Positions 8,495-34,204 of a stretch of 64,000 nt of DNA are shown in pieces. Position 1 is the stretch's first letter, and each line of letters starts with the position of its first letter. The position numbers were made by a program, and so were the translations under genes. The notes below the pieces were generated by a model. The model worked only from the letters and a program-made list of their open reading frames with translations, did not search any database and was not told where the DNA came from. Where the stretch lies: assembly GCF_900890425.1 (NCBI RefSeq), contig NZ_CAAHFG010000001.1:1364001-1428000 (forward strand). Reading direction: 5' to 3'. This DNA comes from Pontiella desulfatans (GTDB lineage: Bacteria > Verrucomicrobiota > Kiritimatiellia > Kiritimatiellales > Pontiellaceae).

Positions 8495-8524
8495 TACGGT
8501 ATCGTCCAACGGATTAGGAGCAAT

Positions 8525-10364: not shown

Positions 10365-10402
10365 ACCGAGGGAGATGATGGCGGTGTACATCAATTAAAC
10401 CT

Positions 10403-10452: not shown

Positions 10453-10469
10453 TGAAGAAGGACTAATCG

Positions 10470-11471
10470 ATGGCATCGCTTAAGGATATTGCAAACGAAC
10501 TGAACCTCTCCATTCCGCTGGTCTCCAAGGTGCTTAGTGGGCGGATGGGGACGACGGGCTGCAGCGAGGAAAACCGGCTGGCTATTTTGGCTAAGGCGAA
10601 AGAGTTGGGCTATAAACCCAACATTCTTGCACGGGCGTTGCGCAACGGGAAAACGGGTTCCATCGGCGTCTTTGTCCATCCGCTGGGAGCGCCGGGCTCC
10701 GATCTGGTCGAGCGTTTGCTGATGGGGCTGAGCACGCAGGCGAACTTCCGGGAGCAACGGCTCTGCCTGAGTTTCTACGAGACCGACAACGAATTCCTCC
10801 AACGCTTCGGAAAGACTGCCCGCGCCGAGATTGACGGCCTGTTGATTACCGGCATCTACCACCCGGATCTGGCAGATCTCTATAAGGAGATTGAAGAGAG
10901 CGGAATTCCCATTGTGACCCTATACAAGAATGCCGAAAAGCAGCCGGGTAGCATCAATGTCTATTGCGACGACTTCCAGGTGGGGTATTTGCCGACCAAG
11001 CATCTGTTGGAAAACGGTTGCCGGAAAATTGCCCACATCCGTTCCATGGAGGCGCGCTACCAGGGTTATTTGAAGGCGCTGGATGAGCATGGTGTGCTAG
11101 AAGATTGTGCTCTGGTGTTTGATGCGATCGAACGCTACGACATGGATTCTGGGCGCGAAGCGGTTCTCCATTGGCTGGAAAACGGAATCGAATTCGATGG
11201 CCTCGTGGCCGAGTCCGACCACCAGGCGTATGGCGGCATTAACGAACTGCTCGCCCATGGCAAAAAGGTACCGGACGACGTCAAGGTATTCGGGGTCGAT
11301 GATTCTCCCGTTTGTAGTTTGTGCCCCATTCCAATCAGTTCGGTTTCCCAGCAGGTGCAGGAAATTGGCGCATTGGCCATTGATACGCTGATCAAGCGGA
11401 TTGCCGGCGACCCGACTGAGTCCATTGAGGTGGCTCCCGAGCTACGCTTGCGAAGCTCCACGGGCAACTAG
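10470..11471 (+). CDS. LacI/GalR-family transcriptional regulator
   Basis: 333 residues, full length for the family. The N-terminal helix-turn-helix is clear: LKDIANELNLSIPLVSKVLSG (residues 4-24), then the hinge region LGYKPNILARALRNGKTGSIGV. The periplasmic-binding-protein-like sensor domain follows, with FDGLVAESDHQAYGGINEL near 240 and VFGVDDSPV near 275. The recognition helix IPLVSKVLSG is typical of sugar-responsive repressors. The gene has its own promoter and stands alone between the FAD oxidoreductase and the frameshifted TonB-like gene. The effector is unknown. Confidence 0.9.
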   Translation: MASLKDIANELNLSIPLVSKVLSGRMGTTGCSEENRLAILAKAKELGYKPNILARALRNGKTGSIGVFVHPLGAPGSDLVERLLMGLSTQANFREQRLCLSFYETDNEFLQRFGKTARAEIDGLLITGIYHPDLADLYKEIEESGIPIVTLYKNAEKQPGSINVYCDDFQVGYLPTKHLLENGCRKIAHIRSMEARYQGYLKALDEHGVLEDCALVFDAIERYDMDSGREAVLHWLENGIEFDGLVAESDHQAYGGINELLAHGKKVPDDVKVFGVDDSPVCSLCPIPISSVSQQVQEIGALAIDTLIKRIAGDPTESIEVAPELRLRSSTGN

Positions 11472-11576
11472 CTTCGGCAAATAGGTCAGACGTATATTTG
11501 CTGTGTAATTCTTTGGTTGGGCGCGTCCTTTTGGGGTGCGGCCTTTCCTGTTTCGCGACCCGGCCCGTTTTGTTAC

Positions 11577-11604
11577 TTGACTATAATCAAAGGTTTGATA
11601 TCTT
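11577..11604 (+). promoter_or_regulatory. Promoter with internal palindrome before the frameshifted TonB-like gene
   Basis: TTGACT (11577-11582), a 16-bp spacer and TATCTT (11599-11604). Between them lies a palindrome, ATCAAAGGTTTGAT (11586-11599), with TCAA/TTGA half-sites and a 4-bp centre, the same half-sites and spacing as the regulon motif described at 18566. Its position inside the promoter would suit a repressor. Confidence 0.45.
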
Positions 11605-11656
11605 GATGCTATGGTTTGGTGCGGCAATAGTGGCTGCCATGGTCGGGAGGTTTTGA

Positions 11657-13515
11657 ATGGCTAGGAAAAAACAGTTTTTTGCGAATCACGCAAAGTCGAG
11701 CGCGGCATTGGTGAGTCTTGGCATCCATGCGGTTTTAATTGTGGTTGCGCTGTCCTTTGTGGCCGTGACCGTTATCACGAAGGACGAGCAAAATTTCAAG
11801 GCGGCGGAGGTGAAACGCCCGAAAATGCAACTCAAAAGGCTGCAGGTTCCAGTTAATGTTAAGAAAAAGAAGGTGCAGAAGCCCAAGCTTCGCAAAAGGA
11901 TTGTGGTTGCCCCTAAATTGAACAAGACCATGCCCGATATCAAGATGCCTGAGGTCACAGGTGTCAAGGGTGGCATTGGCGGTGCCGGTGGTGGGGGGCT
12001 CGGTGGGGCGGCCAGCCTCGGTTTTTCCATGCCGCAGTTTGAGATCTTCGGCATCAAGGGCAAGGGCGAGAAGGTGTTCCTCATGCTGGATTCGTCCTAT
12101 GAAATGATGTACGACGAAATGGGCTGAAAATAGCGCAGTACTACCGTTCGCCCCGCAAACTCTATGCCACCACCTTTGCGGTTCCTCCGGTACAATCCAC
12201 TCTGGCGCCGGAAGCCTACGGCGAACCGGACACCGAAGGATTGTGCTGGATGGCGCACTACAAGGGGCAGTTGGTGTATCCGGAAGATGTGACCATCCGG
12301 TTCTGGGGGATGGGGGACGACCTTCTCGCGGTTCGCGTGGATGGCGAGGTGGTCATGCTCTCTGCCTGGACAACAGGCACGACGGCCGATGGGCATGCCA
12401 GCAATTTTGTCCAGTTGTGGCAAACCTCGACATCGAAAAGCCTCAAGCATCCACTCGGTAACAACCTTTCGACCGTCGGGGACTGGATCGATTTGAAGGC
12501 CGGGGTTCCGCTGGATATGGAAGTGGTGACCTCCGAAATCACCGGCGGGGTGTATTGCTCCCTGCTCTGTGTCGAGGTTAAGGATGAGGAGTATCCCAAG
12601 AACCCGGTTCTGCTGGGGCCGACCTTGCCGATTTTCAAGACTGCGGAGGTTTCCCATAACCTAGCCGACCTGATTCATCGCGATCTGGTTCCCGGCGATG
12701 CCTGCGTGACCAACGGCCCGATTTTCCGTGACTATATGGCGAAGGAAACCACGGAGGAAATGAAAGCGATGGTGCGGATTGAGGATGAACCCAAGATTCC
12801 TCTTCTTGAAAAGGGACTGCGGGTTTGGTCGAGCACAATGGGCAAAGAGCTGGAGGCCGAGTTCATAACCTATATTGGCGACAAGGCCGTTTTTAAGACT
12901 GCGAAGGGCAAGCAGATTAAATATCCGATCGCGCAACTCTCCGCCGAATCCCTCAGGGTGATCGACCTGATGGATCCGCCGGAGTTCGATCTCGATTTCC
13001 ATAAAAGCAGCAGGCAAGTCCCGCCCCCGCCGTTGAGTCCGTTCAATGCAAATGCCATCCAGCGGCCATTGCGTATCTTCGATTACACGTTCGGGGCGAA
13101 AGTGCGCCAAAACACCGCACGGGAATACAGCCGCAAACTGGAGGTTGAATACTATGCTTTCGGCGAAGAGGTGGAGGGAGACCACTGGATTTATCTGGAT
13201 CGGCGGTCGGAAAGCTTTACACCCACCAGGGAAAACAGGCGCTCCTTCGAATTCAAGGGCGAAGCCGTACGGATCCAGAGTCAGGCAATACGCGATTCCG
13301 CACCCATGCGGGGGTCCAGATATGGCGGCTACGTGATTACCCTGAAGGATGAGCGGGGAGCAATCATCGCCCACGAAACCTCGCACGACTTCCTATATGA
13401 AAACCTAAGTAGGATCCGGAAGCTGCCTTTCAATGCCTACTTCAACAAACAGGGTGACCGCATGGTGCCATCGCGCCCCACCGAAGAAGAATATCCAACC
13501 TGGGTTTTCCGCTAA
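11657..13515 (+). pseudogene. TonB-like N-terminus joined by a frameshift to PA14-like and SHD1 domains
   Basis: The first 156 codons (11657-12127) encode one transmembrane helix (residues about 16-41), a Lys/Pro-rich stretch, a Gly-rich linker and then KGEKVFLMLDSSYEMMYDEMG before a TGA. The same residues occur in the intact VWA protein at 51320. The +1 frame is open across the stop and continues GLKIAQYYRSPRKLYATTF..., a PA14-like beta domain (HYKGQLVYPEDVTIRFWGMGDD, VRVDGEVV), then an SHD1-like segment (RVWSSTMGKELEAEFITYIG, about 12820-12975) and a C-terminal region to 13515. Losing one base near 12122 explains the break. The VWA metal site DxSxS is DSSYE here, so it is degenerate. Likely a pseudogene, unless the frameshift is a sequencing error. 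Confidence 0.75.
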
Positions 13516-18717: not shown

Positions 18718-21700
18718 ATGACTAGAACAACGATATTTGCATGGTTTGCGGTCTTTTGCTTATGGGCCTCGGAAGCCTCGGCCTATAAGGTGTGGCTGGG
18801 CACCCACAAGTGGGAGGGCGTGGCGGCCGACAACCTCGATCAATGGGACATGGCCATCGATAAGATCGACGGGATCAACTATGTGCTGCTGGATGCCCGA
18901 CCGGCCCGGCCAGCCGGTGACGGCGCCAATACCAGTGACTGGGACACGATGATCGGCCGGATTGACCAGTCGATTCCCGGTATGGCGGAGATCGCCCGAT
19001 CGCAATATGCGCCCGCACACAGCCGGACCTTGGCTGAGCGGATGGCGAACGAGTTTGCAACGGTTGAAAACCGGGGCGGCGAGATCGATATCATCATGCT
19101 TTATGATGAGGAGAAAGACGGGACTGTTTGGAAATTTTATCTTCAGGACGTCCAAGACGTTCGCGACTGGCTGGATAACAATGGACACGGGGATGTGACC
19201 CTTTGCTTCAACCTCCGCAACAATGACCAGGAGCGGTTGGCGCTGGCCCAGGAGGCTATCTTTGACGGGGTTATGATCGAGGCGAGCGCCACGCGATGGG
19301 TGGAGGATCGGTATAACGTCCATACCCTGTTGCAGGATTTGTGGACGGATCCGAGTACGAGCAACAAGAAGATCTATTTTCAGATTCCGCGGCATGAAAC
19401 GCCTGTCGCATCGGCAAGAAACGGCATTCCGACCTCGCCGATCAACCAGTATATCGAAACCCGCCGGGCGTTGTGGGTGATCAAGGATCTGATGGGCGAT
19501 GCCTTCATGCAAAGTGACCAGGTTATCTTCATTGTCTGCAACTATGGCGATACGTTCGATACCTTTCCGGAAACCGCCAGCAATGATACCCTCTATGTGA
19601 ATACCAAATCGGGAGTAGCCCTATCCTTGATTGAGCAACGCTCTGCTTTTGAGGGACGTACCGGTTTGGTGGACGAAACCCTTTGCGCAAGTTACGACCG
19701 GCTGCTCGCTCCGACCATCAGCTCCATTGCCGACCAAACCGTGCAGGCCAATACCTTGGCGGGGCCGTTGGCCTTCACGATCGATGACGACTTGACCGTC
19801 CCCTCCGCGCTCACGCTGACCGGAGCCTCCTCCGACACCAACCTGGTGCCGTTGGAAAATATATTCTTTGGTGGCAGCGGCTCGAACCGCACCGTCACGG
19901 TTGCTCCTGCATTCGGCCAAAGCGGCACGGCGGAGATCCGTGTTTTAGTAAGCGACGGCACGCTGGGCACCACCGAGACCTTCGAGGTTTCCGTACTGCC
20001 TCCGGGGATCGTGGTTGGCACGATCTACAGCTCCGGCACCGATTGTTCCATCAAGGAAGATTCCGTCATCGAAAAGCTGACGGATGCCACCGTGGACGTG
20101 GGCTGCCGGGGTGGGTCGCCGTATGTCGAGCGTTGCACGGTCTATGTGTTTGAACTGCCGGATTTCGGCGCCGTCGGCAATCCGTTTTCGGCAGCCGGTT
20201 TCGCCTTCAATTTCATAGGCAAGGACGGCACGTTGCGCGACTACGACCTCTACGGCCTGGGTCGGCGCAGCAGCTCCACGGTGTTGGCCAGCGATTACTA
20301 CGCGCTGAGTTCCACGCCGGACCCCACCGATGCAACGCGGCTGCAGCAGGACATTCTGACCGCCGCCACACCGCTCGGACTCGTCGGCACCTCGGCAACC
20401 GGAAGCTCCGGTCTGGTGGCATACCTCAACGCCCAGTTTGCAGCCGGCGCGGGTGCCGGGGAATATGTTTTTCTTCGGATCAACTCCACAGCTCCGAAAT
20501 CCGCCATCAGCTATGCGACGTTGACCCTGTCCGAAGGCGGCGTGGCCGTGCCAACCGATACGCGGCCACGGATCACCTACCAGGCGGTGGGCAACACGCC
20601 CCCCTACATGGGTTTTATTGCCGACCAGACGATTCCCGCCAACACCAGCACGGGGCCGCTGGCCTTCACGTTGGGCGACGATTCGACGCCGGTCGGCTCG
20701 ATCACGCTTGAAGCGGATTCCTCGAACACCAGTTTGGTTCCGGTGGCGAACATTGTGCTGGGCGGCAGCGGTTCCAACCGGACCGTGACCGTTACGCCCG
20801 TGGCCGAAGAAGTAGGCTCTGCACAGGTTTCCATCATCGCGAGCGATGGTACGTTGAGCGCCACCAACACGTTCACGCTGACGGTAACGCCTCCTCCGCT
20901 CGTCTATGAACTGATCGCCGGGTGGGATACCTGGGATAGCACCACGGCTCCCGGCGTTTCCTACACGGCGGCGAACATCACTGCATCCGCGACGGCATCC
21001 GCCGAAGATGGCTCTTCCGATTGGAGCCGGACGGACGATGGAAGCGATCCCGGCCGCGGCTCAAGTGGGGACGGTACTTGGGGAACCCATGCGGGACCGC
21101 CTGCGGCAAGCGCAACAACAGATGTCCACGGTTGCAATTTCGCGTTGACCAATGCCAAGACGAACGGGCAGATCACGGTCACCATCAATAATGCCGGTAC
21201 GGAAGACATCGCTTTGGGCGCCTTCCATTTCGACGCCGTTGCATTCCGTAGCAAGGCTGCCCGGACCTACGCATTGAACGTGTTGGACGGAAGCGATGTT
21301 ACCGCCGGAAATGTCTTCACATCGCCGACCGATGCGATCACCGACCTGGGTGGAGACCTCGTCGGCCACGACCAGCATGATGAGATCGACATCGACCTGA
21401 CCGGACTTGCCGATAACGTCCTCGAAGCAGGTGGAACGGCCATTCTCCAAATTATGTTTACGGGTGGCGCAGGTGACGGCTCCGGCGGACACCACCTGTT
21501 CGTGGACAACCTCGGCCTCTCAGGGGCATTCACGGAAACCGTAGCGCCTCCGGCGCTTGACCTGATCGCCGGTTGGGATGTCTGGAACAGCGGCGCAGTG
21601 CCGAGTGCCAATGTCGTCGCGACGTACATCACCGCATCGGCCGTGGCCATCTCGGAAGATCCTACCCGCCCTTGGCATGTGACCGACGAGCGGGGCGCCA

Positions 21701-22368
21701 GCGCGGACGGCACCTGGGGATCCTTTTCGGGAGCACCAACGGCAAGTGTGACAACGAATGCGGATTTTGAAAACCTGGAGCTTCCCAACGCGGTGACCGG
21801 CGGAACGCTCACGTTCTCCGTTACGAACAACGGTACGGCCGGCATCGAGCTCGACACCTTCCACTTCGACGCCTACGCCTTCCGTTCCAAGGCCGCCCGA
21901 ACCTACGAATTGAGTGTATTGCCCGGGGGCGGTATTTCAGCAGGCGTCATTTACACCTCTGGTGTCCAGGAGATCACCGAAGTGAATGGCGCATGGGACA
22001 ACTTCGCACACGACGATATCGACCATTCCCTGACCGGGCTGGCCGACAACACCCTTGGAGCGGGCGAGTCCGTCCAGTTCCGGCTCACCTTCTCCGGAGG
22101 GGCGGGCGACGCTTCCGGCGGCCATGATCTGTGGGTGGATAACGTGGCCATCTCAGGAACGATATTGCCCTCCACGGAACCCCCGATGCTCGAATACAAC
22201 ATGGGCGGCGGCGACATGGTCTTCAACTGGACCGGCGACGGCTTCAAGGTCCAGTCCCGCACCAACCTGACCATGGGTACCTGGCAGGATGTGCCCGGCG
22301 GCGATTTGCCGCCGGTAACAAATTCAACGACCGATCCAGCAGCGTTCTTCCGGTTGATCGGGCAATAG
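18718..22368 (+). CDS. Secreted modular protein with the unrecognised YxVWxG N-terminal domain (paralog 1)
   Basis: 1216 residues; ATG 18718 gives a signal peptide ending ASEASA and has AGGAA upstream. Residues 20-330 share a domain with the proteins at 23595 and 27075: YKVWLG, LDQWDMA, IIMLYDEE, RDWLDNNGHGDVTLC, GVMIEAS, IVCNYGD and ALSLIEQ. The alternating strands and helices, with a conserved Glu in MIEA, read like a (beta/alpha) barrel. No LamG domain here. Instead two Ig/cadherin-like repeats (IADQTVQANT at about 335 and IADQTIPANT at about 640) flank a beta domain, then two AGWD modules (about 730-900 and 945-1140) and the FKVQSRTNL tail. Function unknown; a glycoside hydrolase or binding protein acting on the locus substrate is a guess from context. 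Confidence 0.6.
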   Translation: MTRTTIFAWFAVFCLWASEASAYKVWLGTHKWEGVAADNLDQWDMAIDKIDGINYVLLDARPARPAGDGANTSDWDTMIGRIDQSIPGMAEIARSQYAPAHSRTLAERMANEFATVENRGGEIDIIMLYDEEKDGTVWKFYLQDVQDVRDWLDNNGHGDVTLCFNLRNNDQERLALAQEAIFDGVMIEASATRWVEDRYNVHTLLQDLWTDPSTSNKKIYFQIPRHETPVASARNGIPTSPINQYIETRRALWVIKDLMGDAFMQSDQVIFIVCNYGDTFDTFPETASNDTLYVNTKSGVALSLIEQRSAFEGRTGLVDETLCASYDRLLAPTISSIADQTVQANTLAGPLAFTIDDDLTVPSALTLTGASSDTNLVPLENIFFGGSGSNRTVTVAPAFGQSGTAEIRVLVSDGTLGTTETFEVSVLPPGIVVGTIYSSGTDCSIKEDSVIEKLTDATVDVGCRGGSPYVERCTVYVFELPDFGAVGNPFSAAGFAFNFIGKDGTLRDYDLYGLGRRSSSTVLASDYYALSSTPDPTDATRLQQDILTAATPLGLVGTSATGSSGLVAYLNAQFAAGAGAGEYVFLRINSTAPKSAISYATLTLSEGGVAVPTDTRPRITYQAVGNTPPYMGFIADQTIPANTSTGPLAFTLGDDSTPVGSITLEADSSNTSLVPVANIVLGGSGSNRTVTVTPVAEEVGSAQVSIIASDGTLSATNTFTLTVTPPPLVYELIAGWDTWDSTTAPGVSYTAANITASATASAEDGSSDWSRTDDGSDPGRGSSGDGTWGTHAGPPAASATTDVHGCNFALTNAKTNGQITVTINNAGTEDIALGAFHFDAVAFRSKAARTYALNVLDGSDVTAGNVFTSPTDAITDLGGDLVGHDQHDEIDIDLTGLADNVLEAGGTAILQIMFTGGAGDGSGGHHLFVDNLGLSGAFTETVAPPALDLIAGWDVWNSGAVPSANVVATYITASAVAISEDPTRPWHVTDERGASADGTWGSFSGAPTASVTTNADFENLELPNAVTGGTLTFSVTNNGTAGIELDTFHFDAYAFRSKAARTYELSVLPGGGISAGVIYTSGVQEITEVNGAWDNFAHDDIDHSLTGLADNTLGAGESVQFRLTFSGGAGDASGGHDLWVDNVAISGTILPSTEPPMLEYNMGGGDMVFNWTGDGFKVQSRTNLTMGTWQDVPGGDLPPVTNSTTDPAAFFRLIGQ

Positions 22369-22417
22369 GTCCGATGTTCGTTTTATCTGGCTCCCTGCGC
22401 CAAGCATGCGAGCCGAA

Positions 22418-22448
22418 TTTAACGATTTGAAACCTGATGGTGTTGAGG
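22418..22448 (+). promoter_or_regulatory. Regulon site C
   Basis: TTTAACGATTTGAA (22418-22431) sits 11 bp before TTGAGG (22443-22448). A GATAAA at 22463-22468 is near but closely spaced, so the -10 is uncertain. The site is 50 bases upstream of the next gene. Confidence 0.65.
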
Positions 22449-22481
22449 GGCGGGCGTATTCTGATAAATCCATGCATTGTA

Positions 22482-23573
22482 ATGAAAAATAGAATGCATA
22501 TTTCAGTAGTGGTTTCAGTGGCCGTTATCGCGGCGATACTCTTGGGCCTTTACGTTTTGAAGGAGTCGAACCAGCAGGAAACGGAAGGCCGAACATCCGG
22601 ACAACCGGTGCCCAGCGTGGCTGAGGAACCTGATGTTCAGCAGGGTGATTCCGTTACCGCCAAGGATGAGGTGCATGTGGGACAACGCCGCCCTCCGCTC
22701 AGCCAGAAGGTGGATGCCATTCAGCAGGAACCTGATTACAAGGAGCGTCCGGGTATGCTGTTTGATCTGATGCTTGAAGCGTCGCTTCAGGAGGTTCACG
22801 GGTTATTGGCATTAAGTGAGGACGTCACTTATTCTGTGGGGTTCAGGGATGACATGAAAGCGGCGGCCTTCGAACGGTGGTATCAGTTGGATCCGGTGGC
22901 GGCGATTCGGGCGATGGATGCCTCCACGCTGTCTGCCAGCCAAAAGAATTCAAGGATGGAAATCTTTCTTGAAGATTGGGCGGGCCGGTCGCCGCAGGAT
23001 GTTGCGGCTCTTCTTGGGCAGGGTCAACTTACCGGCGTCTCTTCGGACCTGACCTATGGCGCATTGGTTCGAGGCAGTGCGAAGAACGGCGACCTTGAAG
23101 TGGTCGATGCTGCGTTGGCCCTCATGGACGATCCAACGTTGAGGTTTTATGCGCTCAAGTCCGCCGCACGTGTTTTGCAACGGGATCATGCCGACCGGTT
23201 TGAGGGTTGGTTGGTCACCTTGCCTGGCTCCGACCAGAATACGGCCCTTGCCGAAAGTGCCTGGATGCTGGCGGATCAAGATATGGACCGCGCGCTTCTA
23301 GGATTAGATCAATTGGCGGCGCGCGGTGCCGATGAACTTCCGGTCACGCGACTGAGAGTCGCCGTGAAGTGGGCGGATAAGGATCCAGTCAAAGCGGCAA
23401 ATTGGGTGGCCGCCCAGGACGTGACGGGAGAAGACCGGGAAATTCTATTTGCGAACGTCATGCGCGTTTGGATTTCAAAAGATCAGTCGGCAGCGGTGGC
23501 CTGGGTGGAGTCCTTAATCGAAAAAGGGGAAATCGACGAGGCGTTCATGAATCGGGTTGGCGGGCGATTATAG
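22482..23573 (+). CDS. Membrane-anchored all-alpha protein of unknown function
   Basis: 363 residues from ATG 22482; an upstream start at 22437 would lie inside the promoter. MKNRMHISVVVSVAVIAAIL is an uncleaved signal anchor, followed by a low-complexity linker (residues 28-80) and then helices rich in Ala, Trp and Asp (AAAFERWYQLDPVAAIRAMD, WAGRSPQDVAALLG, WADKDPVKAANWVAAQD, SAAVAWVESL). Such WxxxDPxAAxxW repeats are a recurring theme in periplasmic proteins of Verrucomicrobia, with no assigned role known to me. It is probably anchored in the inner membrane with a helical-repeat domain in the periplasm. It sits 21 bases before paralog 2 and is likely co-transcribed from site C. Confidence 0.6.
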   Translation: MKNRMHISVVVSVAVIAAILLGLYVLKESNQQETEGRTSGQPVPSVAEEPDVQQGDSVTAKDEVHVGQRRPPLSQKVDAIQQEPDYKERPGMLFDLMLEASLQEVHGLLALSEDVTYSVGFRDDMKAAAFERWYQLDPVAAIRAMDASTLSASQKNSRMEIFLEDWAGRSPQDVAALLGQGQLTGVSSDLTYGALVRGSAKNGDLEVVDAALALMDDPTLRFYALKSAARVLQRDHADRFEGWLVTLPGSDQNTALAESAWMLADQDMDRALLGLDQLAARGADELPVTRLRVAVKWADKDPVKAANWVAAQDVTGEDREILFANVMRVWISKDQSAAVAWVESLIEKGEIDEAFMNRVGGRL

Positions 23574-23594
23574 GGATAAAAGTGAGGGTTGAAC

Positions 23595-26500
23595 ATGCGT
23601 GTTAAAATGAAGATGAGAGCCATTGTTTTAATCGTGTCCGTGGTTTTTTCCACGAGTGTGAGTTTGGGCTATGAGGTGTGGTATGGCATGCCCTATTTGC
23701 CGGCAAATGCAGGAACTACCGAAATTGATCAGTGGGATATTGTTGCTCCACAGTTACAGGGGATCAATGCGAATTTTCGGGATGCACAGCGCCCCGAAGA
23801 AGAAAGAAACACCCGCGATACGTGGAAGGCGTCCCTGGACCAGATGCCCAATGCAAGGAATAATGCGCTGGTGGCATTACCGAGACCCGAATTTCAATAT
23901 TCCCCCGGAGGGATGGGCCAGAAAACGTTAGAGGAGGCACTGCAGCTCCGCTGGAACCAGGAAAATCAATATGGAATCACGATCAACTATCTCATGCTTT
24001 ATAATGAACGGCCGCAGGAAAACCCGGACTTGCCCGTCATCGAATATACCGATGCAGAGGTTCAGCAAATTCGGGACTGGTTGGATAATAACGGGCATTC
24101 GCAGGTCATCCTCTGCTGGGATGTCCGCAGTTTCGCTCCGGACGAACAACTTTATTCCGAAAAACCGGCCTTTACCGGTATCATGATGGAAGGCAGCCCC
24201 TATTTATGGGAATCAAATTCCGGAAGACGTAAGGAATATATTCAATGGGCCTTAGCGAATCCCCTGGTGAAAGACAAAGAGTGGGTGATGCAAACCCCTG
24301 TACGAAATATCAGCGGAATGAATCTCTACGAATCGATGCGTTGGTTCATGCGCTATATTCCGCAGATTCTTGGAGGTTTCGATTTTTGGCGGCGCGATGA
24401 TGTTTCCATGCTGACCATCACCTACGGCCCTACAGATAAACACCTTCCGGAGCTAGAGTCGGGTGAAACGCAATATGGAAATTCGATCATGGGCTTTCAA
24501 CTCTCCATTATTGAACAAAAAGCTTTGTTTGAGGGATATCATGGTGCGATTACAGAAGCACAAGCCGAAAGCCGCGATAGAATCATTTATGACATGCCGC
24601 CGGAAGGGCCGGCTTCCGGCCTGCTCGCGCACTGGCCGTTGGATGAAGGTTCGGGAACGATCGCGGGCGATGCGTCGGGCTATGGATTCGACGGCGAGCT
24701 GCTCAACGGCGTGACCTGGGGCAGCGATGCGGAGCGCGGAACCTACGCGGTGTTTGACGGAGTGAATGACCGTATTACCACGCCGCTCAACAATGCGCTG
24801 GCCGACACGAACGACTTTACCTGGGCCTGGTGGGCGAAAAGCACACTTCCTGCGACGGATACCACACAGAAAGGGGCCATCATGGTGGGCAACCGCTACG
24901 GGAATACGGGCGACCAAAGTTTTGAATTTATCAAATTCACCCCGCAGGGCGCTCAACTCGCGAATACGGATAATGCCGGCACCATCGAAAAATATGAGTA
25001 TGCCGACATTCCGCAGAATGAATGGCACCATTACGCGATGGTGAAAACCGGCACGAGTTATCAGTGGTATGTCGATGGCGTCGCGCAGGGTGTGGCCTCC
25101 AATTTTGTCTACAGCGAATCCTCCACAATCCCATTCCTGATCGGCGGCGATGACGATGGTTCGGGCACCAAGGTGAACGAACATTTCCAGGGCTGCATCG
25201 ACGACGTGGTGCTGTATCGCCAGGCGCTGACGCCGACGGAAATCGATGATGTGATTAATGGTATCTATCTTCCGACGATCACCTTGGTTACCCTTGGAAC
25301 ACCCGTTGATTCGACGGAACCCACAGCTTGGTCTGATGGTCAGGCGCCTCATGGCGGTGCCGATTATGTGATTCCAGACACTGGAAATCTGCGTGGCGAA
25401 TCCGGAACCACCACGTTTCCAGGTGCCTCTTTGAAAGTGGAGGCGGGCGGCAAGTTCCAGGTTCGTTCGCTCGACAGTTCGAGCCAAATCACCACCGTGA
25501 ATAATCTGATTCTCGCAGGTGGCACAGGCGCAAATTATACCCAGCTGGCCGCCGGAACGGGTACCGGAGAGATCAATGTGCTCGACGGAAAAGTGACCAA
25601 CTCGGGCGCCAGCCGACTGGTGACATACGCTTCGGTAACCCGAAGCCTGAAGGTGCTTTCGCAAATCAGCGGCGATGGAACCCTGCAGGCCGGCGGCGGC
25701 GCCTCCGTCATTGTTGACAACGCCGCCAACACCTTCTACGGCACCTGGGAAGCGGATGCCGGCACGACACTGACCTTCACCAGCGGCGGCGCGGTCGGAA
25801 CGGCCGATGTCGACGTGCTGGACGGCGGAACGCTTCAGATCCTCGGAACCTGGGACTCGGGCGCCTCGCTGAGCGTCGCCGACACGGCAACGACACAGGT
25901 TGATCTTGGATCCTACAGCTGGTTTGTTTCTTCCCTCCTGTTTGGCGGATCATCGGTTGAGGGCGGAACCCGGACCGCATCGGAGCTGAATGCGCTCGGA
26001 GCAAACAGCGTCTTTACCGGAACCGGCACGCTTACGGTCGTGCCGGAAGGGTCTGTCTATGTTTCGGCCGTCTACAACACGCCGGGTACGGTGATGTGGA
26101 CCTGCCCTGAAGGCATCACCTACATTCAGGTGGAATGCTGGGGCGGCGGCGGCGCAGGAGGAGGCGCTAAGCTAACGGCGACAAGTGGCGGCGCGGGCGG
26201 CGGCGGTGCTGCTGCGGGTGCCTATGCCAGGGTGATGAATGTTCCGGTCACGCCCGGCAATACCTACAGCCTTACCATTCCGGCGGCGGCCACGTGTTCT
26301 TCCGGCTTTACCGACGGCCAGCGGTTCAATGGCTCGGCCGTGACCTTTACGGGCGATGGCGGGGAAACGGTCACCGCCGCGGGCGGACAAGGTGGCGCCT
26401 GCCATATCGGCAGTGCCAACGGACCGGCCGGCATCGGCAGCACGACCGGCTGCGTCGGAGACCAGTTTTACAAAGGCGGTAGCGGCGGAAACTACGGCAG

Positions 26501-26978
26501 CAACAACGGCGGCAGCGGCGGCGGCGGACCCAGCGACCTGGCGGACGGCGGTGACGGCTCTACAACGGAAACGGGCGGCGGAGGCCTCGGAGCGATTGGC
26601 AGCGACCCTGACCACAACGGCGGCAACGGCGCCAATGGCCGAGGTGCCGGGAATACCGGTTTACCCGGCAACACGCCAGGCGGCGGCGGTGGCGGTGCCA
26701 AGTCCCAGATGCAAGATGGAGAATATATCGGCGGCTCGGGCGGCCTGGGCCAGATCATCATTACCTATCTTCAGCTTCCTGCCGTAGAATCCCCGGTGCT
26801 TGAGCACAGCATGAGCGCGGGCGGCATGGTCTTCAGCTGGACGGGAAGCGGCTTCAAGGTTCAGTCCCGCACCAACCTCATGGACGGGGCTTGGTCCGAC
26901 GTGCCTGGCGGCGACGTCACACTCGTGAATGTGATCCCAACCAACGGTGCGGCTTTCTACCGGCTGATTGAACAGTAA
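23595..26978 (+). CDS. Secreted modular protein with the YxVWxG N-terminal domain, LamG and Gly-rich regions (paralog 2)
   Basis: 1127 residues from ATG 23595 (a TTG two codons earlier is possible). Signal peptide ends near SVSLG. Residues 20-335 are the unrecognised domain: YEVWYG, DQWDIV, NYLMLYNER, RDWLDNNGHSQVILCWDVR, GIMMEGSPYLWE, WVMQTPV, LTITYGPTDKHLPE. A LamG/ConA-like domain follows (about 338-550: LLAHWPLDEGSGT, WHHYAMVKTG, CIDDVVLYRQALT), then autotransporter-type beta strands (555-815), a Gly-rich stretch (about 850-1050) and the FKVQSRTNL tail. From LamG onward it is nearly a copy of the protein at 27075. Enzyme activity is unproven. Confidence 0.6.
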   Translation: MRVKMKMRAIVLIVSVVFSTSVSLGYEVWYGMPYLPANAGTTEIDQWDIVAPQLQGINANFRDAQRPEEERNTRDTWKASLDQMPNARNNALVALPRPEFQYSPGGMGQKTLEEALQLRWNQENQYGITINYLMLYNERPQENPDLPVIEYTDAEVQQIRDWLDNNGHSQVILCWDVRSFAPDEQLYSEKPAFTGIMMEGSPYLWESNSGRRKEYIQWALANPLVKDKEWVMQTPVRNISGMNLYESMRWFMRYIPQILGGFDFWRRDDVSMLTITYGPTDKHLPELESGETQYGNSIMGFQLSIIEQKALFEGYHGAITEAQAESRDRIIYDMPPEGPASGLLAHWPLDEGSGTIAGDASGYGFDGELLNGVTWGSDAERGTYAVFDGVNDRITTPLNNALADTNDFTWAWWAKSTLPATDTTQKGAIMVGNRYGNTGDQSFEFIKFTPQGAQLANTDNAGTIEKYEYADIPQNEWHHYAMVKTGTSYQWYVDGVAQGVASNFVYSESSTIPFLIGGDDDGSGTKVNEHFQGCIDDVVLYRQALTPTEIDDVINGIYLPTITLVTLGTPVDSTEPTAWSDGQAPHGGADYVIPDTGNLRGESGTTTFPGASLKVEAGGKFQVRSLDSSSQITTVNNLILAGGTGANYTQLAAGTGTGEINVLDGKVTNSGASRLVTYASVTRSLKVLSQISGDGTLQAGGGASVIVDNAANTFYGTWEADAGTTLTFTSGGAVGTADVDVLDGGTLQILGTWDSGASLSVADTATTQVDLGSYSWFVSSLLFGGSSVEGGTRTASELNALGANSVFTGTGTLTVVPEGSVYVSAVYNTPGTVMWTCPEGITYIQVECWGGGGAGGGAKLTATSGGAGGGGAAAGAYARVMNVPVTPGNTYSLTIPAAATCSSGFTDGQRFNGSAVTFTGDGGETVTAAGGQGGACHIGSANGPAGIGSTTGCVGDQFYKGGSGGNYGSNNGGSGGGGPSDLADGGDGSTTETGGGGLGAIGSDPDHNGGNGANGRGAGNTGLPGNTPGGGGGGAKSQMQDGEYIGGSGGLGQIIITYLQLPAVESPVLEHSMSAGGMVFSWTGSGFKVQSRTNLMDGAWSDVPGGDVTLVNVIPTNGAAFYRLIEQ
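25389..25465 (+). repeat. 77-bp perfect direct repeat within a larger tandem duplication (copy 1)
   Basis: Identical to 28854-28930, offset 3465 bases. It lies in a duplicated region running roughly from 24603 to 26978 (LamG to stop) against 28080 to 30443. The 5' thirds of the two genes have diverged much further. Confidence 0.9.
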
Positions 26979-27074
26979 GCTTTCCTGAGGCGGGTGGAAC
27001 GATGTTAACAAATACGGAGCTCAGTCGTTTCATACAAATGCGTGCTCCGAAAGGGGTAGAAGAAAAAGTAAAAA

Positions 27075-30000
27075 ATGAGTGCTAAAAATAAGATGAGAAT
27101 CTTTTATTTAATGGTGTCGGTGCTTTTTTCAGTGAGCATAAGTTTTGGCTATCAAGTTTGGTTTGGCCTGCCCTATATGCCGAAGGAATCCCAAAGCAAT
27201 CTTGATCAATGGGATTTCATGGCCACGCAAGTGAAAGGGCTCAACCTTAATCCAGTGGATACCCAGCGGCCGGATGAAGATCGAAACAGTACGGCTGACT
27301 GGAAAGCGATTGTTCAAGCCATGCCGACCGCCAAAAACAATTGCATGATCGGCGTCCCGAGAACGCACTTCTTTTACGATGGATATGGAGGCTCCTCAAA
27401 ACCCACATTAGCGGAAATGCTAAACACAAAATTTAAGCAGGAAGGAAAATATGCATGCCAAATCAAATGGGTCATGCCGTTTGATAACCAACCCGGAGAA
27501 GACCGAACGCTGCCAATCGAGCTATGGAGCGATGCCGAACTGCAGGAACTGCGGGATTGGCTGGATAATAATGGGCATGCCGATGTTAAGTTATTGACCA
27601 ATGTGCGAAACAACGGCACCCGGGCTCATGATTTTGCTGAGAAAGCCATTGTCGATGGTATGTCCATAGAAGCCAAAGCCTACCTTTGGTATGAGAATAA
27701 CGGCCGCAGGCAGGATTACCTTCAATGGGCCGTGGCAAACCCGTTGACCAAAGATAAAAATTTTAAGTTTCAGGTTCCTTTTGGAACATATGACGGAGAA
27801 AGCGGATATCAGGCGATGCGCGGTTTTATGCGTTGGTTGAGTAACACCGTGCTGAATAGTACGGAACTTGTCCGGCGTCCGGATACGGTATTTCTGATCA
27901 TCACCTACGGCCCTAGCGATCCGCATCTTCCGGAACTGTCGGCTGATGAAACGGAATATGTAAATACGATGTCATCGCTGTCGTTATCGCTTATCGAACA
28001 AAAGGCCATGTTTGAAGGAACTGCACCGGGAGGTTTGATCTCCAAAGCGCAGACCCTGAGCTATGACCGAGCAGTAGTTGATTCCGCCCCGACCTCCGGC
28101 TTGGTGGCGCATTGGCCGCTGGATGAAGGTTCCGGAACGGATGCATACGATGCGTCGGGCTATGGATTCGACGGCGAGCTGCTCAACGGCGCGACCTGGG
28201 GCAGCGACGCGGAGCGCGGAACCTATGCGGTCTTTGATGGAACGGACGACCGAATTGAAACATCCTTCACCTACGCACTGGCCGACACGAATGACTTTAC
28301 CTGGGCGTGGTGGGCAAAAAAGGAGCCCACATCGCATTCGGGTTCGATCATGCTCGGCAACCGCTACGGCAACACGGGGTCGGAAACGTATGAATTCATC
28401 AAAATGACGCCCTCCAAAGCATCGTTTGCGAACACGGACAGTACCGGTAGCATTGAAAACTATGACTATGCGGAGATTGCCGTGTCGAGCTGGCACCACT
28501 ATGCGATGGTGAAGGACGAAACGAGCTACCAGTGGTATGTCGACGGCGTGGCGCAAGGTGTGGCATCCAACTTGGTCTACAGCGAATCCTCTCCGCTTCC
28601 ATTCCTGATCGGCGGAGACGATAACGGGTCTGGCACGGTGAATGAACATTTTGAGGGCTGCATCGACGACGTGGTGCTCTACCGCAGCGCCCTGACGCCC
28701 GGGGAAATCATCAATGTCATCAACGGTATCTATCTGCCGACGGTTACGCTGACCACGCTGGCAACGCCGGTTGATTCGACCGATGGCAGTGTTTGGTCGG
28801 ACGGTCTGCCCGCCCACGGCGGAGCGGATTATGTGATTCCAAGCACTGGAAACCTGCGTGGCGAATCCGGAACCACCACGTTTCCAGGTGCCTCTTTGAA
28901 AGTGGAGGCGGGCGGCAAGTTCCAGGTTCGCTCGCTCGAAAGTTCCAGTGACGTGACGACGGTGAACCATCTGGTTCTCGCAGGCGGTGCGGGCGCAAAT
29001 TATGCCTTGCTCGCCGCCGGAACGGGGAACAATGCGATCAATGTACTCGATGGCACCATCACCCAATCGGGCGCATCGAAACTGCTTACCTATGGCGGCT
29101 CCATTGCCCGAAGCCTGAATGTGCTTTCACAGATTAACGGCGATGGAACGCTCCAGGTGGTCGGCGAGGGCGCAATGATCGATAACGCCGCCAACGCCTT
29201 TTCCGGAACATGGGAAGTCGCCGACGGCGCAACGTTGACCTTTAACAACGCCGGCGCGGTCGGTTCGGCCAATATCGACGTGCTGGATGGTGGAACGCTC
29301 CAAATTCTCGGAACCTGGAACTCGGGCGCCTCGCTGAGCGTCGTCGACACGCCAACGACACAGGTTGAGCTTGGATCTCAAAGCTGGTTTGTATCTTCCC
29401 TTCTCTTTGGCGGCTCGCCGGTTGAGGGCGGAACCCATACCGCATCGGAGCTCAATGCGCTCGGAGCAAACAGCGTCTTTAGCGGAACCGGCACGCTTAC
29501 GGTCGTGCCGGAAGGGTCGGTCTATGTTGCGGCAACCTACAATGCGCCGGGTACTCAGACTTGGACGTGCCCGCAAGGCATCAACTACATTCGGGTGGAG
29601 TGCTGGGGCGGCGGCGGCGCGGGGGGAGGTGCCGTGCGAACCACGCCGACAGGCGGCGCGGGCGGCGGCGGTGCTGCTGCGGGGGGCTATGCCAGGCTGA
29701 TGAATGTTCCGGTCACGCCCGGAATGAATTACACCATCACCATTCCGGCGGCGGCCACGTGTTCTTCCGGCTTTAGCGACGGCCAGCGCTTCAACGGCCC
29801 GGCCGTGACCTTTACGGGCGATGGCGGGGCAACGGTCACCGCAGCAGGCGGACAAGGCGGCGCCTGTCATATCGGCAGTGCCAACGGACCGGCCGGCATC
29901 GGCAGCACGACCGGCTGCGTCGGCGACCAGTTTTACAAAGGCGGCAGCGGCGGAAACTATGGCAGCAACAATGGCGGAAGCGGCGGCAGCGGTCCCAGCG

Positions 30001-30443
30001 ACCTGGCGAACGGGGTGGACGGCTTAACAACGGAAACGGGCGGCGGGGGCATTGGAGCGACGGGCAGCGATGCTGCGCACGACGGCGGTGACGGCGGCGA
30101 TGGCAGAGGCGCCGGAAATCATGGTTTCGCCGGTAGCACTCCGGGTGGCGGCGGCGGGGGTGCCAAGTCCCAGATGCAAGGTGGAGAATATCTCGGCGGC
30201 TCGGGCGGCCTGGGCCAGATCATCATTACCTACCTGCGGCTTCCCGCAGATGAAGCGCCAATGCTCGGGCACGGTATGAGCGGCGGCGGCATGGTCTTCA
30301 ACTGGACGGGCAACGGCTTCAAGGTGCAATCGTGCACCAACCTAACGGAAGGAACGTGGCAGGATGTGCCCGGTGGCAACATGCCGCCCGTGACGAACTC
30401 CACGGTAGAACCGGAAGCCTTCTTCCGGTTGATTGAGCTGTAG
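27075..30443 (+). CDS. Secreted modular protein with the YxVWxG N-terminal domain, LamG and Gly-rich regions (paralog 3)
   Basis: 1122 residues from ATG 27075. Signal peptide MSAKNKMRIFYLMVSVLFSV...SFG. The N-terminal domain keeps YQVWFG, LDQWDF, RDWLDNNGHADVKLLTNVR, GMSIEAKAYLWYEN, FQVPFG and IITYGPSDPHLPE. At the position of NER (paralog 2) and DEE (paralog 1) it has DNQ, so a second carboxylate there is not conserved, whereas the Glu of SIEA is. The LamG, passenger, Gly-rich and tail regions follow in the same order as in paralog 2. It begins 96 bases after paralog 2 without a clear copy of the regulon motif; TGGAACGATGTTAA at 26995-27008 is only a weak match. It may be read through from site C. 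Confidence 0.6.
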   Translation: MSAKNKMRIFYLMVSVLFSVSISFGYQVWFGLPYMPKESQSNLDQWDFMATQVKGLNLNPVDTQRPDEDRNSTADWKAIVQAMPTAKNNCMIGVPRTHFFYDGYGGSSKPTLAEMLNTKFKQEGKYACQIKWVMPFDNQPGEDRTLPIELWSDAELQELRDWLDNNGHADVKLLTNVRNNGTRAHDFAEKAIVDGMSIEAKAYLWYENNGRRQDYLQWAVANPLTKDKNFKFQVPFGTYDGESGYQAMRGFMRWLSNTVLNSTELVRRPDTVFLIITYGPSDPHLPELSADETEYVNTMSSLSLSLIEQKAMFEGTAPGGLISKAQTLSYDRAVVDSAPTSGLVAHWPLDEGSGTDAYDASGYGFDGELLNGATWGSDAERGTYAVFDGTDDRIETSFTYALADTNDFTWAWWAKKEPTSHSGSIMLGNRYGNTGSETYEFIKMTPSKASFANTDSTGSIENYDYAEIAVSSWHHYAMVKDETSYQWYVDGVAQGVASNLVYSESSPLPFLIGGDDNGSGTVNEHFEGCIDDVVLYRSALTPGEIINVINGIYLPTVTLTTLATPVDSTDGSVWSDGLPAHGGADYVIPSTGNLRGESGTTTFPGASLKVEAGGKFQVRSLESSSDVTTVNHLVLAGGAGANYALLAAGTGNNAINVLDGTITQSGASKLLTYGGSIARSLNVLSQINGDGTLQVVGEGAMIDNAANAFSGTWEVADGATLTFNNAGAVGSANIDVLDGGTLQILGTWNSGASLSVVDTPTTQVELGSQSWFVSSLLFGGSPVEGGTHTASELNALGANSVFSGTGTLTVVPEGSVYVAATYNAPGTQTWTCPQGINYIRVECWGGGGAGGGAVRTTPTGGAGGGGAAAGGYARLMNVPVTPGMNYTITIPAAATCSSGFSDGQRFNGPAVTFTGDGGATVTAAGGQGGACHIGSANGPAGIGSTTGCVGDQFYKGGSGGNYGSNNGGSGGSGPSDLANGVDGLTTETGGGGIGATGSDAAHDGGDGGDGRGAGNHGFAGSTPGGGGGGAKSQMQGGEYLGGSGGLGQIIITYLRLPADEAPMLGHGMSGGGMVFNWTGNGFKVQSCTNLTEGTWQDVPGGNMPPVTNSTVEPEAFFRLIEL
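28854..28930 (+). repeat. 77-bp perfect direct repeat (copy 2)
   Basis: Identical to 25389-25465; see that entry. Confidence 0.9.
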
Positions 30444-30483: not shown

Positions 30484-30497
30484 TTTAACGATTTGAA
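30484..30497 (+). promoter_or_regulatory. Regulon site D
   Basis: TTTAACGATTTGAA, identical to site C. The hexamer at the standard 11-bp distance is TTTTCG (30509-30514), a poor -35, with TAAAAC (30532-30537) 17 bp further. It precedes the gene at 30629. Confidence 0.6.
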
Positions 30498-30628
30498 TAT
30501 GCGCAAGGTTTTCGGGGTGCAGTTGTTGGAATAAAACCAAGTTCGATAAAAGAGGAATAAACCGCATCGCTGAACCAGCGCATATGCGCGTGTGGAATCC
30601 AGAGCGGGACGAGTGGCAAGGAGATACA

Positions 30629-33600
30629 ATGAGGAATCATGTTTTTAACGCCGTATTGTTGACGTGTTTGTTTTTAGGTGGCGCATCAAGACTCGATGCG
30701 GCGGTCTATTATGAATCCGGCGGCTTGGTCATTATGGAGATGGAGAACACGGATTCTCCGCTAGGGCTGTGGCAACAGCAATCCTCCCTGGGCGGGTATA
30801 CGGGAAGCGGCTATCTGCAGTTCCTGGGGAATACGTACGAAACGGGGCCGGCAACCTCTCCGCTTGAGTACACGTTTAAAGTGAACCAATCCGGGCTTTA
30901 CTATCTCCACCTCCACTGTGCGAAGGAGACGCATGATGGCCGAACAGATGTGGCCAACGACTGCTATGTGCGCGTGGAAGGGGATTACAGTGCCGGGCCG
31001 GCTCCATGGGACAGTCATGGCGACAATGCCCCCTTGGGCATGCTGCAAAGTGATACCAAATATTTCGGGGGAGCGGCTGATGCCTGGAAATGGGAAGATG
31101 GGGAGCTGTCTTCGGGGGGCAATGGAAACCTGGATGCCGGCGGAACGTCAAACAAGCGGGTGGCGGTCTACGATTTCAAGGCCGGGGAGACCTATACGCT
31201 GGTTGTTTCCGGGCGCTCCAAGTTTTTCAGGATCAACCGCATCATGTTCCGCCACACGTCGGTGGCGAAGACTACGGCGCAGAACCTCGGCAATCCGGAA
31301 TCGGGGATGGTGACGTCGGTTGCAGAATATGCCTATGAGGCAACCTCCGATTTTCCCGACTACCTGTCCGGCGATGTTCCGTACTATATCGACCCTGGCA
31401 ACGACGCGCTGGCCATCGCGGCGAACATCGAGGCGAACCGTAGTGGTTTTGCCCGGGCTTCGAGAACCTTTGATGGCGCGACGGGCCACTACGATGTGAC
31501 GATTACCACGCTGACGGAAGAGGATGGGGAATCCACCTACCGGCTGCTGGTGAACGGATCGGTTGTGGCCACCTTTGTGAATACCTACATCGGCCCCGGT
31601 TCGCCGCAGGACCTGCAACCGGAAACCCACCGATGGGTGGGCATCCCGATCAACAGCGAAGACACCCTGGCCATCGAGTCGAACGCCGACACCAATGGCG
31701 AAATTCCCGAAGGCACCAACGGCACCGCCTGGGCGCGCGGCCGCTGGCGCCAGATCGAGCTGACGTCTTCGCTGGTTAAGCCGCCGACCGGTCGGCTGGC
31801 CTATGTCGCCGACGGCAACTCGCCGGACCCGGACGATATCGGCGCCAATGCCGTGCTGTTGGGGCTGCTGAAAGGGGCTGAACAGCAGGATCGGCTGGTT
31901 CACTTCTCGCATTCGTGCGACCTGGTTAAAGCCAGCAACATTTCCGCTGCGGACGAACTTCGCCGCCAGGCGTATTTGCACCGGACAGCCGCTGAAGGGT
32001 TGTCCTACTTCGGGCCGTTCACCAATCTGGCCGACTACTACAACTGCCGCTCCAACCAGACGGCGGCGGTCGCGAACCTGACGGCGGCCATCGACGCTTC
32101 AACCGCCGCCGATCCGCTGTGGATCATCGAAGCCGGCGAACCCGACATCATCGGCTATGCCTTGCAGGCCGCCGACCCCGCAAAGATACCGTATGTTCAT
32201 GTGGTGTCGCACCATCCGGCCAATGATGATAGCGGCGACATCTTCACCTGGGCACAAATCTTGGCCTTTGGCGTAACCGAACATCAGATCGGCGACCAGA
32301 ATGTTGGATTGCAGGTGCTCATGAGTTCCGGATTGTGGGACTGGGCGGAAGGCCATGGCAATCCGGCCATGGTCTGGATTCTTGACCAGCTGAAATATGC
32401 GGAAGCCGATGGCGTCGTCGGTTTCCAGACCGGCAAGTACGACTGCTCCGATGCCGGGATGATCTACTGGTGGTTGACCGGTGCCGATAACGGTGGAAAC
32501 AAGCATTCCACCCCGGTCGAAATAAAAGACCTGCTGCTCTACGATGGCATCACCCTTGCCCCGACGGTCACCATGGTTGCACTGGGCTCCGCGGTGGATT
32601 CGACCGCAGGCAGCACATGGTCGGATGCGCAGCCCGCGCATTCGGGAGCCCATTACATGGTTCCCGCCACCGGAAACCTACGCAGTGAAAGCGGAACTTC
32701 AACCTTCCCCGGCGACTCGCTAACCGTTCTGGCCGGGGGTAAATTCCAGGTGCGGTCGCTGGATACACTCGGCGAAACCACGACGGTGAACCAGTTGGTT
32801 TTCAGAAACGGAACCAGTTTTGCGGCGGGAGAAGTTGCCCAACTCGCCGCGGGAACCGGTAATGATTTGACGAATGTGCTCGGCGGAAGCATCTCGAATT
32901 CGGGTTATACCAAGTTCCTTTCCTACCATGCCTACAGTGGCGGCGCCATTTCCCGGAGTTTGAGCATCCAGTCTGCGATTGACGGTGATGGGCATATCCA
33001 GGCCTGGGAAGGATCGACGGGCTATGGAGGGGAAACCGTGATTATCGCCAATGCGGCCAACACGTTTTCCGGAACATGGGAAGTTGGTACGGACACCACG
33101 CTGGTGTTCAACAACGCCGGTGCGGTTGGTTCGGCGGATGTTGTTGTTCTTGACTCGGGCAAGCTACGGATTTTGGGTGATTGGAACACCTATGCAAACC
33201 TGACGGTGGCCGACACTGCGACCACATCAGTCGATCTGGGTTCCCATGCCTGGAAGGTAACCCATCTGGACGTTGGAGGAACTGCCATTGCCGACGGCTC
33301 GTATACCGCGGCCCAGCTCAATGCATTGGGAACGAATCCGGTATTCAGCGGCAACGGAACCCTTGTTGTTGGCGCCGCCCCGCCTCCTCCCGTATCGGCA
33401 ATTGTTGCCGGTTGGGATACGTGGGATAGCGCGACCGCTCCCTCCGCATCCGTGCTTGCACCGAATGTCACCGCATCGGCTGAAACGACCACAGAACAGC
33501 AATCTTGGAATGTCGTCGACGAGCGCGGTGCCAGCAACGACGGTGATTGGGGAACCTTTGCAGGCCCCCCCTCGGCGAGTACCGTAACCAATGCGGATTT

Positions 33601-34204
33601 TGAAAACCTTGAGTTGCCGAATGCCACCACCGGCGGAACCATCACGTTCTCGATCACAAATAATGGTCTGGCCGATATCCAATTGAATGCCTTTCATTTT
33701 GACGCCTATGCGTTTCGTCCCAAGGCGGCCCGGGCATACTCGCTGAGCGTGTTGGCCGGCAGCGATATTACCGTCGGTACGATCTACACGTCAGCGGACG
33801 ATGAAATTTCTTCCGTAGGTGGGGCGTGGGACAACGGTGCGCATGACGATATCGATCTTTCCCTGGCCGGGCTTGCCGACCATACCCTTGCTGCCGGCGA
33901 GTCGGTCGACTTCCTGCTGGCCTTTTCAAGCGGAGAGGGGGATGCCGCCGGCGGCCATGATCTGTGGGTGGACAACGTTGCCGTTTCGCAGCTGGTCACC
34001 GTCCCCCCGGCCGCACCCCCGGTGCTCGGTTTCGACATGAACGAAGGCGATATGGTCATCTCCTGGAGTGGGAGCGGATTCAAGGTGCAGTCCTGCACCA
34101 ACCTGACGGTAGGCGCCTGGAACGATGTGCCCGGCGGCGATATGCCGCCGGTGACGAATTCCCTGACCCATCCGGAAGCCTTCTATCGTTTGATTGAGGA
34201 ATGA
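30629..34204 (+). CDS. Secreted protein with nucleoside-hydrolase-like domain, N-terminal binding domain and C-terminal modules
   Basis: 1191 residues from ATG 30629 (AAGGAG 8 bases upstream; the earlier ATG at 30584 lacks a signal peptide). Residues 20-205 resemble a CBM6-like beta-sandwich (VIMEMENTDSPLGLW, YTFKVNQSGLYYLHLHC). Residues 215-385 are a second beta domain. Residues 388-640 (AYVADGNSPDPDDIGANAVLL, VHFSHSCDLV, WIIEAGEPDIIGYAL, HVVSHHPAND) resemble the nucleoside-hydrolase-like (DUF1593-type) fold, whose first strand carries the Asp cluster that binds calcium. Then come passenger strands (645-925), one AGWD module and the FKVQSCTNL tail. It was probably recruited for glycan work rather than nucleosides, because it is secreted and controlled with the locus. 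Confidence 0.6.
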   Translation: MRNHVFNAVLLTCLFLGGASRLDAAVYYESGGLVIMEMENTDSPLGLWQQQSSLGGYTGSGYLQFLGNTYETGPATSPLEYTFKVNQSGLYYLHLHCAKETHDGRTDVANDCYVRVEGDYSAGPAPWDSHGDNAPLGMLQSDTKYFGGAADAWKWEDGELSSGGNGNLDAGGTSNKRVAVYDFKAGETYTLVVSGRSKFFRINRIMFRHTSVAKTTAQNLGNPESGMVTSVAEYAYEATSDFPDYLSGDVPYYIDPGNDALAIAANIEANRSGFARASRTFDGATGHYDVTITTLTEEDGESTYRLLVNGSVVATFVNTYIGPGSPQDLQPETHRWVGIPINSEDTLAIESNADTNGEIPEGTNGTAWARGRWRQIELTSSLVKPPTGRLAYVADGNSPDPDDIGANAVLLGLLKGAEQQDRLVHFSHSCDLVKASNISAADELRRQAYLHRTAAEGLSYFGPFTNLADYYNCRSNQTAAVANLTAAIDASTAADPLWIIEAGEPDIIGYALQAADPAKIPYVHVVSHHPANDDSGDIFTWAQILAFGVTEHQIGDQNVGLQVLMSSGLWDWAEGHGNPAMVWILDQLKYAEADGVVGFQTGKYDCSDAGMIYWWLTGADNGGNKHSTPVEIKDLLLYDGITLAPTVTMVALGSAVDSTAGSTWSDAQPAHSGAHYMVPATGNLRSESGTSTFPGDSLTVLAGGKFQVRSLDTLGETTTVNQLVFRNGTSFAAGEVAQLAAGTGNDLTNVLGGSISNSGYTKFLSYHAYSGGAISRSLSIQSAIDGDGHIQAWEGSTGYGGETVIIANAANTFSGTWEVGTDTTLVFNNAGAVGSADVVVLDSGKLRILGDWNTYANLTVADTATTSVDLGSHAWKVTHLDVGGTAIADGSYTAAQLNALGTNPVFSGNGTLVVGAAPPPPVSAIVAGWDTWDSATAPSASVLAPNVTASAETTTEQQSWNVVDERGASNDGDWGTFAGPPSASTVTNADFENLELPNATTGGTITFSITNNGLADIQLNAFHFDAYAFRPKAARAYSLSVLAGSDITVGTIYTSADDEISSVGGAWDNGAHDDIDLSLAGLADHTLAAGESVDFLLAFSSGEGDAAGGHDLWVDNVAVSQLVTVPPAAPPVLGFDMNEGDMVISWSGSGFKVQSCTNLTVGAWNDVPGGDMPPVTNSLTHPEAFYRLIEE

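Follow-up and report, generated by a model that had tools for sequence, protein, structure and literature searches.

A predicted barrel domain in a polysaccharide locus of Pontiella desulfatans as a candidate new family of secreted enzymes

Three large proteins encoded in the window, that is, the whole 64,000-nucleotide stretch of Pontiella desulfatans DNA analysed here, share an N-terminal domain predicted to form a (beta/alpha)8 barrel; it probably represents a new family of secreted enzymes, most likely glycoside hydrolases acting on a sulfated, ulvan-type polysaccharide of rhamnose and uronic acid. We give this reading a probability of roughly 0.6, catalysis being its conjectural part, while support is good for the barrel family itself and for its link to the locus. 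The absence of the family from Pfam, NCBIfam and PDB makes it a well-defined candidate for addition to CAZy as a new family, and since the enzymes of the locus already hint at the substrate, it is directly assayable. If the reading is true for ulvan-type polymers, it would partly explain the breakdown of green-algal sulfated polysaccharide by anaerobic marine Verrucomicrobiota and would provide a new tool for trimming such polymers. The three proteins and their domains are as follows.

18718..22368, + strand: protein 1, with signal-like N-terminus, barrel domain, cadherin/Ig-like and other C-terminal modules, without LamG
18775..19716, + strand: barrel domain of protein 1
23595..26978, + strand: protein 2, with barrel domain, LamG (24756-25244) and glycine-rich domain (26079-26768)
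23667..24587, + strand: barrel domain of protein 2
27075..30443, + strand: protein 3, with barrel domain, LamG (28236-28709) and glycine-rich domain (29547-30233)
27147..28073, + strand: barrel domain of protein 3, used for the AlphaFold2 model

The reading frames 18718-22368, 23595-26978 and 27075-30443 are present as the first-pass annotation had claimed, and the motifs by which it characterised the domain (YxVWxG, (L/I)DQWD, RDWLDNNGH, the (M/S)IEA or MMEG strand, ITYGP or VCNYGD, and LS(L/I)IEQ(K/R)) were located where it had placed them. The first ~345 residues of the three proteins align over their full length, with 46 invariant columns in the four-member set. The common N-terminal domain is thus shared as described, and its length is closer to 310 residues than to the ~330 given. 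Signal peptides had been assigned to all three, which is plausible by eye from the hydrophobic N-termini ahead of the YxVW start. The LamG domains ascribed to two of the three were recovered in the Pfam scan (Laminin_G_3, E 2.7e-19 and 7.8e-17); together with the glycine-rich domains of proteins 2 and 3, they are the modules confidently named by Pfam/NCBIfam. In the four-member alignment, domain identities to the 23595 copy are 45, 32 and 27%. When the 23595 domain was used as query against the whole 8.66 Mb genome, four copies and no fifth were found, with E-values of 9e-97 for the 27075 copy, 5e-40 for a copy at C1:1609462 and 2e-31 for the 18718 copy. Given these values and the lack of any other match in 8.66 Mb, the copies are not due to chance.

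Relative to Pfam, NCBIfam and PDB the family is new, in agreement with the earlier statement that the domain could not be placed. Full-length Pfam and NCBIfam scans gave no convincing match to the barrel domain, nor did domain-only scans at E up to 10 with 10 members in Pfam and 14 in NCBIfam, and no family in either collection scored above its curated cut-off. Searching PDB sequences with the domain returned no match or small insignificant ones only, and a literature search found no paper describing it. A confident match to a known family, which had been named as a refutation of the novelty claim, did not appear in these collections; in PDB the fold search led no further than generic barrels. 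Kinship to the GH97 (SusB) alpha-glucosidase was considered on a profile match with the first alignment (E 0.24 over positions 178-233) and was dropped when the match was gone with the larger alignment. Profile matches to GH97 and unsaturated glucuronyl hydrolase (E 0.08-0.46) covered tiny stretches and were likewise rejected.

Structure prediction with a fold search had been proposed beforehand as a check. The AlphaFold2 model of the 27075 domain, derived from a 15-sequence alignment, has a mean pLDDT of 91.7 and a pTM of 0.90; an earlier model with four sequences (pLDDT 51.5) was unusable and was set aside before the fold search. Eight strands (residues 3-7, 31-33, 66-71, 106-112, 148-153, 171-175, 205-211 and 247-252) alternate with helices as eight beta-alpha units, which bears out the guess of a (beta/alpha) barrel. 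Foldseek matched generic TIM barrels only, with TM-score <=0.51. Against PDB these were pyruvate kinases, aldo-keto reductases, the GH101 core and GH191 (TM-score normalised to query length, TMq, 0.36-0.48), and against viral models (BFVD) the best TM-score was 0.51, with viral GH5 among the matches (TMq 0.46-0.49); aldolases and isomerases are also included among the generic matches. Among solved structures, the modelled barrel has no close relative.

Two glutamates stand out at one end of the predicted barrel, and their codons are listed below.

19279..19281, + strand: invariant Glu, end of strand 6 (MIEA), protein 1
24189..24191, + strand: invariant Glu, end of strand 6 (MMEG), protein 2
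27669..27671, + strand: invariant Glu, end of strand 6 (SIEA), protein 3, model residue 175
19570..19572, + strand: second invariant Glu (FPE, loop after strand 8), protein 1
24450..24452, + strand: second invariant Glu (LPE), protein 2
27933..27935, + strand: second invariant Glu (LPE, loop after strand 8), protein 3, model residue 263

E175, E263, R154 and R225 are invariant in 15 of 15 complete copies, while N33, N35, R72, N152, Q209 and Y254 each vary in one or two of them. The Glu of the IEA/MEG strand, which had been said to be kept in all three window proteins, is therefore conserved in every complete copy. The second Glu (E263) is family-wide and had been overlooked: the Glu of HLPE had been presented as a feature of two copies, which is not correct, as the 18718 protein has FPE with an equally conserved Glu. 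It was right that the NER/DEE/DNQ position is not a conserved carboxylate, since strand 4 ends at position 113 in Asp (10/15), Asn (4/15) or Gly (1/15); position 209 of strand 7 is Gln or His across the 15 copies. In the model, both invariant Glu share their end of the barrel with the conserved Asn, Arg, Gln and Tyr; of 22 conserved polar residues, 7 are placed at the C-terminal end of a strand and 1 at an N-terminal end (permutation P 0.013). In the mechanism that we propose, Glu175 would be the general acid/base and the second catalytic carboxylate would be Glu263 or, in some members, Asp113. Arg72 and Arg154 may grip a sulfate or carboxylate of the substrate, and the LamG and repeat modules would tether the enzyme to the polymer or to the surface of the cell. 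Against a hydrolase speak the variation at the end of strand 4, where a nucleophile or acid is common, and the lack of a significant sequence or fold match to any known glycosidase family.

Membership of the domain proteins in a polysaccharide locus, as the first-pass annotation had it, is supported by an operator-like motif and by a conserved neighbourhood, of which the relevant features are as follows.

22437..23573, + strand: conserved neighbour, single-TM protein with helical repeats (by eye), without Pfam match
30584..34204, + strand: conserved neighbour, secreted protein of 1206 aa
18566..18579, + strand: palindrome core, exact copy upstream of protein 1
22418..22431, + strand: palindrome core, exact copy upstream of 22437, 23595 and 27075
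30484..30497, + strand: palindrome core, exact copy upstream of the 30584 gene

The window and the next 40 kb encode three BNR_4 proteins, GH88, GH3, GH78, GH106, GH39, GH2 and sulfatases. One BNR_4 protein matches solved L-Rha-alpha-1,4-D-GlcA lyases with E 7e-48, and ulvan lyases were matched weakly. With lyase-like, unsaturated-glucuronidase, rhamnosidase and sulfatase genes and a common control site, the region has the make-up of a rhamnose/uronate (ulvan-type) utilisation locus. Known ulvan loci of marine bacteria, such as PUL H of Formosa agariphila, similarly bring together GH78, GH39, GH3, unsaturated-glucuronyl hydrolase, sulfatases and lyase-like genes (PMC8511951), whereas the Pontiella locus adds several unrecognised secreted proteins, including the barrel family, and its substrate is only putative. 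The paper on Pontiella desulfatans F1 reports a genome of 8.6 Mbp with 56.0% G+C and 56 rhamnosidase genes, without mention of ulvan (PMC7356697); the window has 56.8% G+C. Beyond the window end, two large locus proteins (L083:4791-7241 and 8054-11788) are without an enzymatic Pfam match.

Homologues of the GH78 (70-76%), BNR_4, 30584, 22437, sulfatase and GH106 proteins recur beside the family in Haloferula rosea, an uncultured Opitutae MAG and several other genomes. The 22437 homologues adjoining the family reach 57% in H. rosea and 72% in the Opitutae MAG, and a protein resembling the 22437 product was also seen beside the barrel copy in L031. Next to family members, 30584 homologues (39-71%) were seen in L044, L045, L046 and L050, and in L047 with the N-terminal part only. 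The 30584 protein had no significant Pfam match, and its residues 273-672 had no PDB match; it is possibly a second new enzyme. Around the single-domain copies L048 and L049 no recognisable polysaccharide locus was found, so the locus link is not valid for the entire family. A stretch of the 30584 protein, VADGNSPDPDDIGANA, recalls nucleoside-hydrolase-like proteins by eye.

The operator-like motif is a 16-base palindrome, ATTYAA-CGAT-TTGAAT, that occurs before 18718, 22437 and 30584 and at two other sites. Recorded positions of the motif in the window are 14873, 18566, 22418, 30484, 38750 and 51214. The copy TTYAACGATTTGAA ends 139 bp upstream of 18718. Two of the proteins had been reported to be near regulon sites, and exact copies upstream of 18718 and just before 22437 confirm this; 23595 and 27075 follow 22437 closely, and the three genes form a probable operon. 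Five exact 10-base cores were found in the window versus 0.21 expected. Genome-wide, 7 of 8 exact 14-base matches fall inside C1:1382566-1465541 (83 kb), and the motif is almost confined to the locus (C1:1378873-1465541). This suggests that the sites constitute one regulon, for which the LacI-type 10470 and XylR/AraC-type 45688 proteins are candidate regulators. In G676, sigma-70-like and FecR-like genes (L034:2552-3145, L047:9808-11124; by reading) are found between two divergent family members, which suggests a different mode of control there.

An alternative in which the barrel lacks catalytic activity and serves carbohydrate binding or surface display, as an ancestral hydrolase fold that grips the polymer while LamG and repeats act as anchors, is unlikely. 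In its favour, strand 4 has Asn or Gly in five copies, the architecture of repeats, LamG and glycine-rich domain looks adhesive, and several neighbouring locus proteins carry the same C-terminal modules as the barrel proteins. However, the two invariant Glu and the Asn, Arg, Gln and Tyr around them are kept down to about 26% identity, as would be expected of a chemical site, and stand-alone domain proteins of 347-394 residues occur in other genomes without any display modules. Also improbable is a non-hydrolase enzyme acting on the locus sugars, such as an epimerase, lyase or dehydratase built on the barrel scaffold. The aldolases, aldo-keto reductases and isomerases among the generic fold matches are compatible with it, and there is precedent in a dehydratase that acts on ulvan oligosaccharides without a cofactor (PMC8511951), but the proteins are secreted, no cofactor- or metal-binding motif is recognisable by eye, and the layout of the two Glu fits hydrolysis.

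Among glycosidases, clan GH-A (GH5, GH39 and others) resembles the family in its barrel fold, in the presence of a polysaccharide locus and through the viral GH5 fold matches. Enzymes of this clan have the acid/base Glu on strand 4 and the nucleophile Glu on strand 7, a pair that the barrel family lacks, having D/N/G and Q/H at these strands; with Asp, Asn or Gly closing strand 4, it is not a standard clan-A glycosidase. The endo-alpha-galactosaminidase group GH114/GH135/GH166/GH191 comes closer, with an eight-fold barrel, a polar residue at strand 4, Asn at strand 5 and Glu at the end of strand 6, positions taken here by D/N113, N152 and E175, at the ends of strands 4, 5 and 6. Five PF03537 sequences have Asp, Asn and Glu in the same order, GH191 chains are among the top PDB fold matches (TMq 0.39-0.41), and an unforced hhalign profile alignment pairs the Glu175 strand with the GH114 Glu strand. 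Still, we consider it improbable that the family is a divergent branch of this group. The profile match is insignificant (E 0.28, 11 columns, no better than controls), the TM-score of about 0.40 is low, and the locus indicates rhamnose and uronic acid rather than galactosamine. The group uses an Asp nucleophile and a Glu acid/base (PMC12054363), whereas in the barrel family the strand-4 Asp is not conserved and an extra invariant Glu follows strand 8. Membership in GH114 (PF03537) was rejected accordingly, also for want of a Pfam match, PF03537 having no match anywhere in the Pontiella genome. The family may act in a manner resembling that of GH114-type galactosaminidases, and we do not class it as a member.

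The preferred reading, a new hydrolase family, concerns a domain of rare and patchy occurrence. In other Verrucomicrobiota, 11 complete and 2 broken copies were found, giving 15 complete aligned copies with the four of Pontiella. Seven of 244 sampled genomes carry it, all seven from one Verrucomicrobiota family and with Haloferula rosea among them, as does the Opitutae MAG, and it was not found in 145 relatives, at least 20 of them of the same genus. A scan of genome contigs with the narrow patterns WLDNN and SIIEQ returned at least four loci, the other copies coming from whole-genome searches. No relative was among the 68 pattern matches in viral contigs, and plasmids had no copies. Weak matches in L011 (a subtilase-like protein by reading) and L018-L021 (L019 being a DNA-ligase-like protein by reading) were dropped as chance. 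The broken copies, L009:5896-7785, frameshifted over several frames, and L032:1432-2043, cut short, are pseudogenes or assembly errors.

The protein 1 barrel domain is 80% identical to the Opitutae MAG copy at L008:2446-5943. In the tree some copies sort by type and not by host: 18718 joins the Opitutae copy, and 27075 falls with copies from H. rosea and Opitutae. Support is good for both placements, while the deeper order is unsure given the long branches. This grouping and the absence from close relatives point to lateral transfer of the locus. A more far-reaching version, possible although we would not favour it, is a new GH family with a clan of its own, with a strand-6 acid/base Glu and a post-strand-8 carboxylate, which would cut an ulvan-type linkage without a known enzyme and would belong to a mobile locus passed between Kiritimatiellae and other Verrucomicrobiota. 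Within the Pontiella genome, the fourth copy (L005:11360-14731; G000:C1, about 1609.4-1612.7 kb) lies outside the main regulon and adjoins sulfatases and a PEP-CTERM-like protein. Modules appear to have been exchanged between proteins of this genome. The protein at L005:2388-4859 begins differently and shares 77% identity, in its middle portion, with the LamG part of the 27075 protein.
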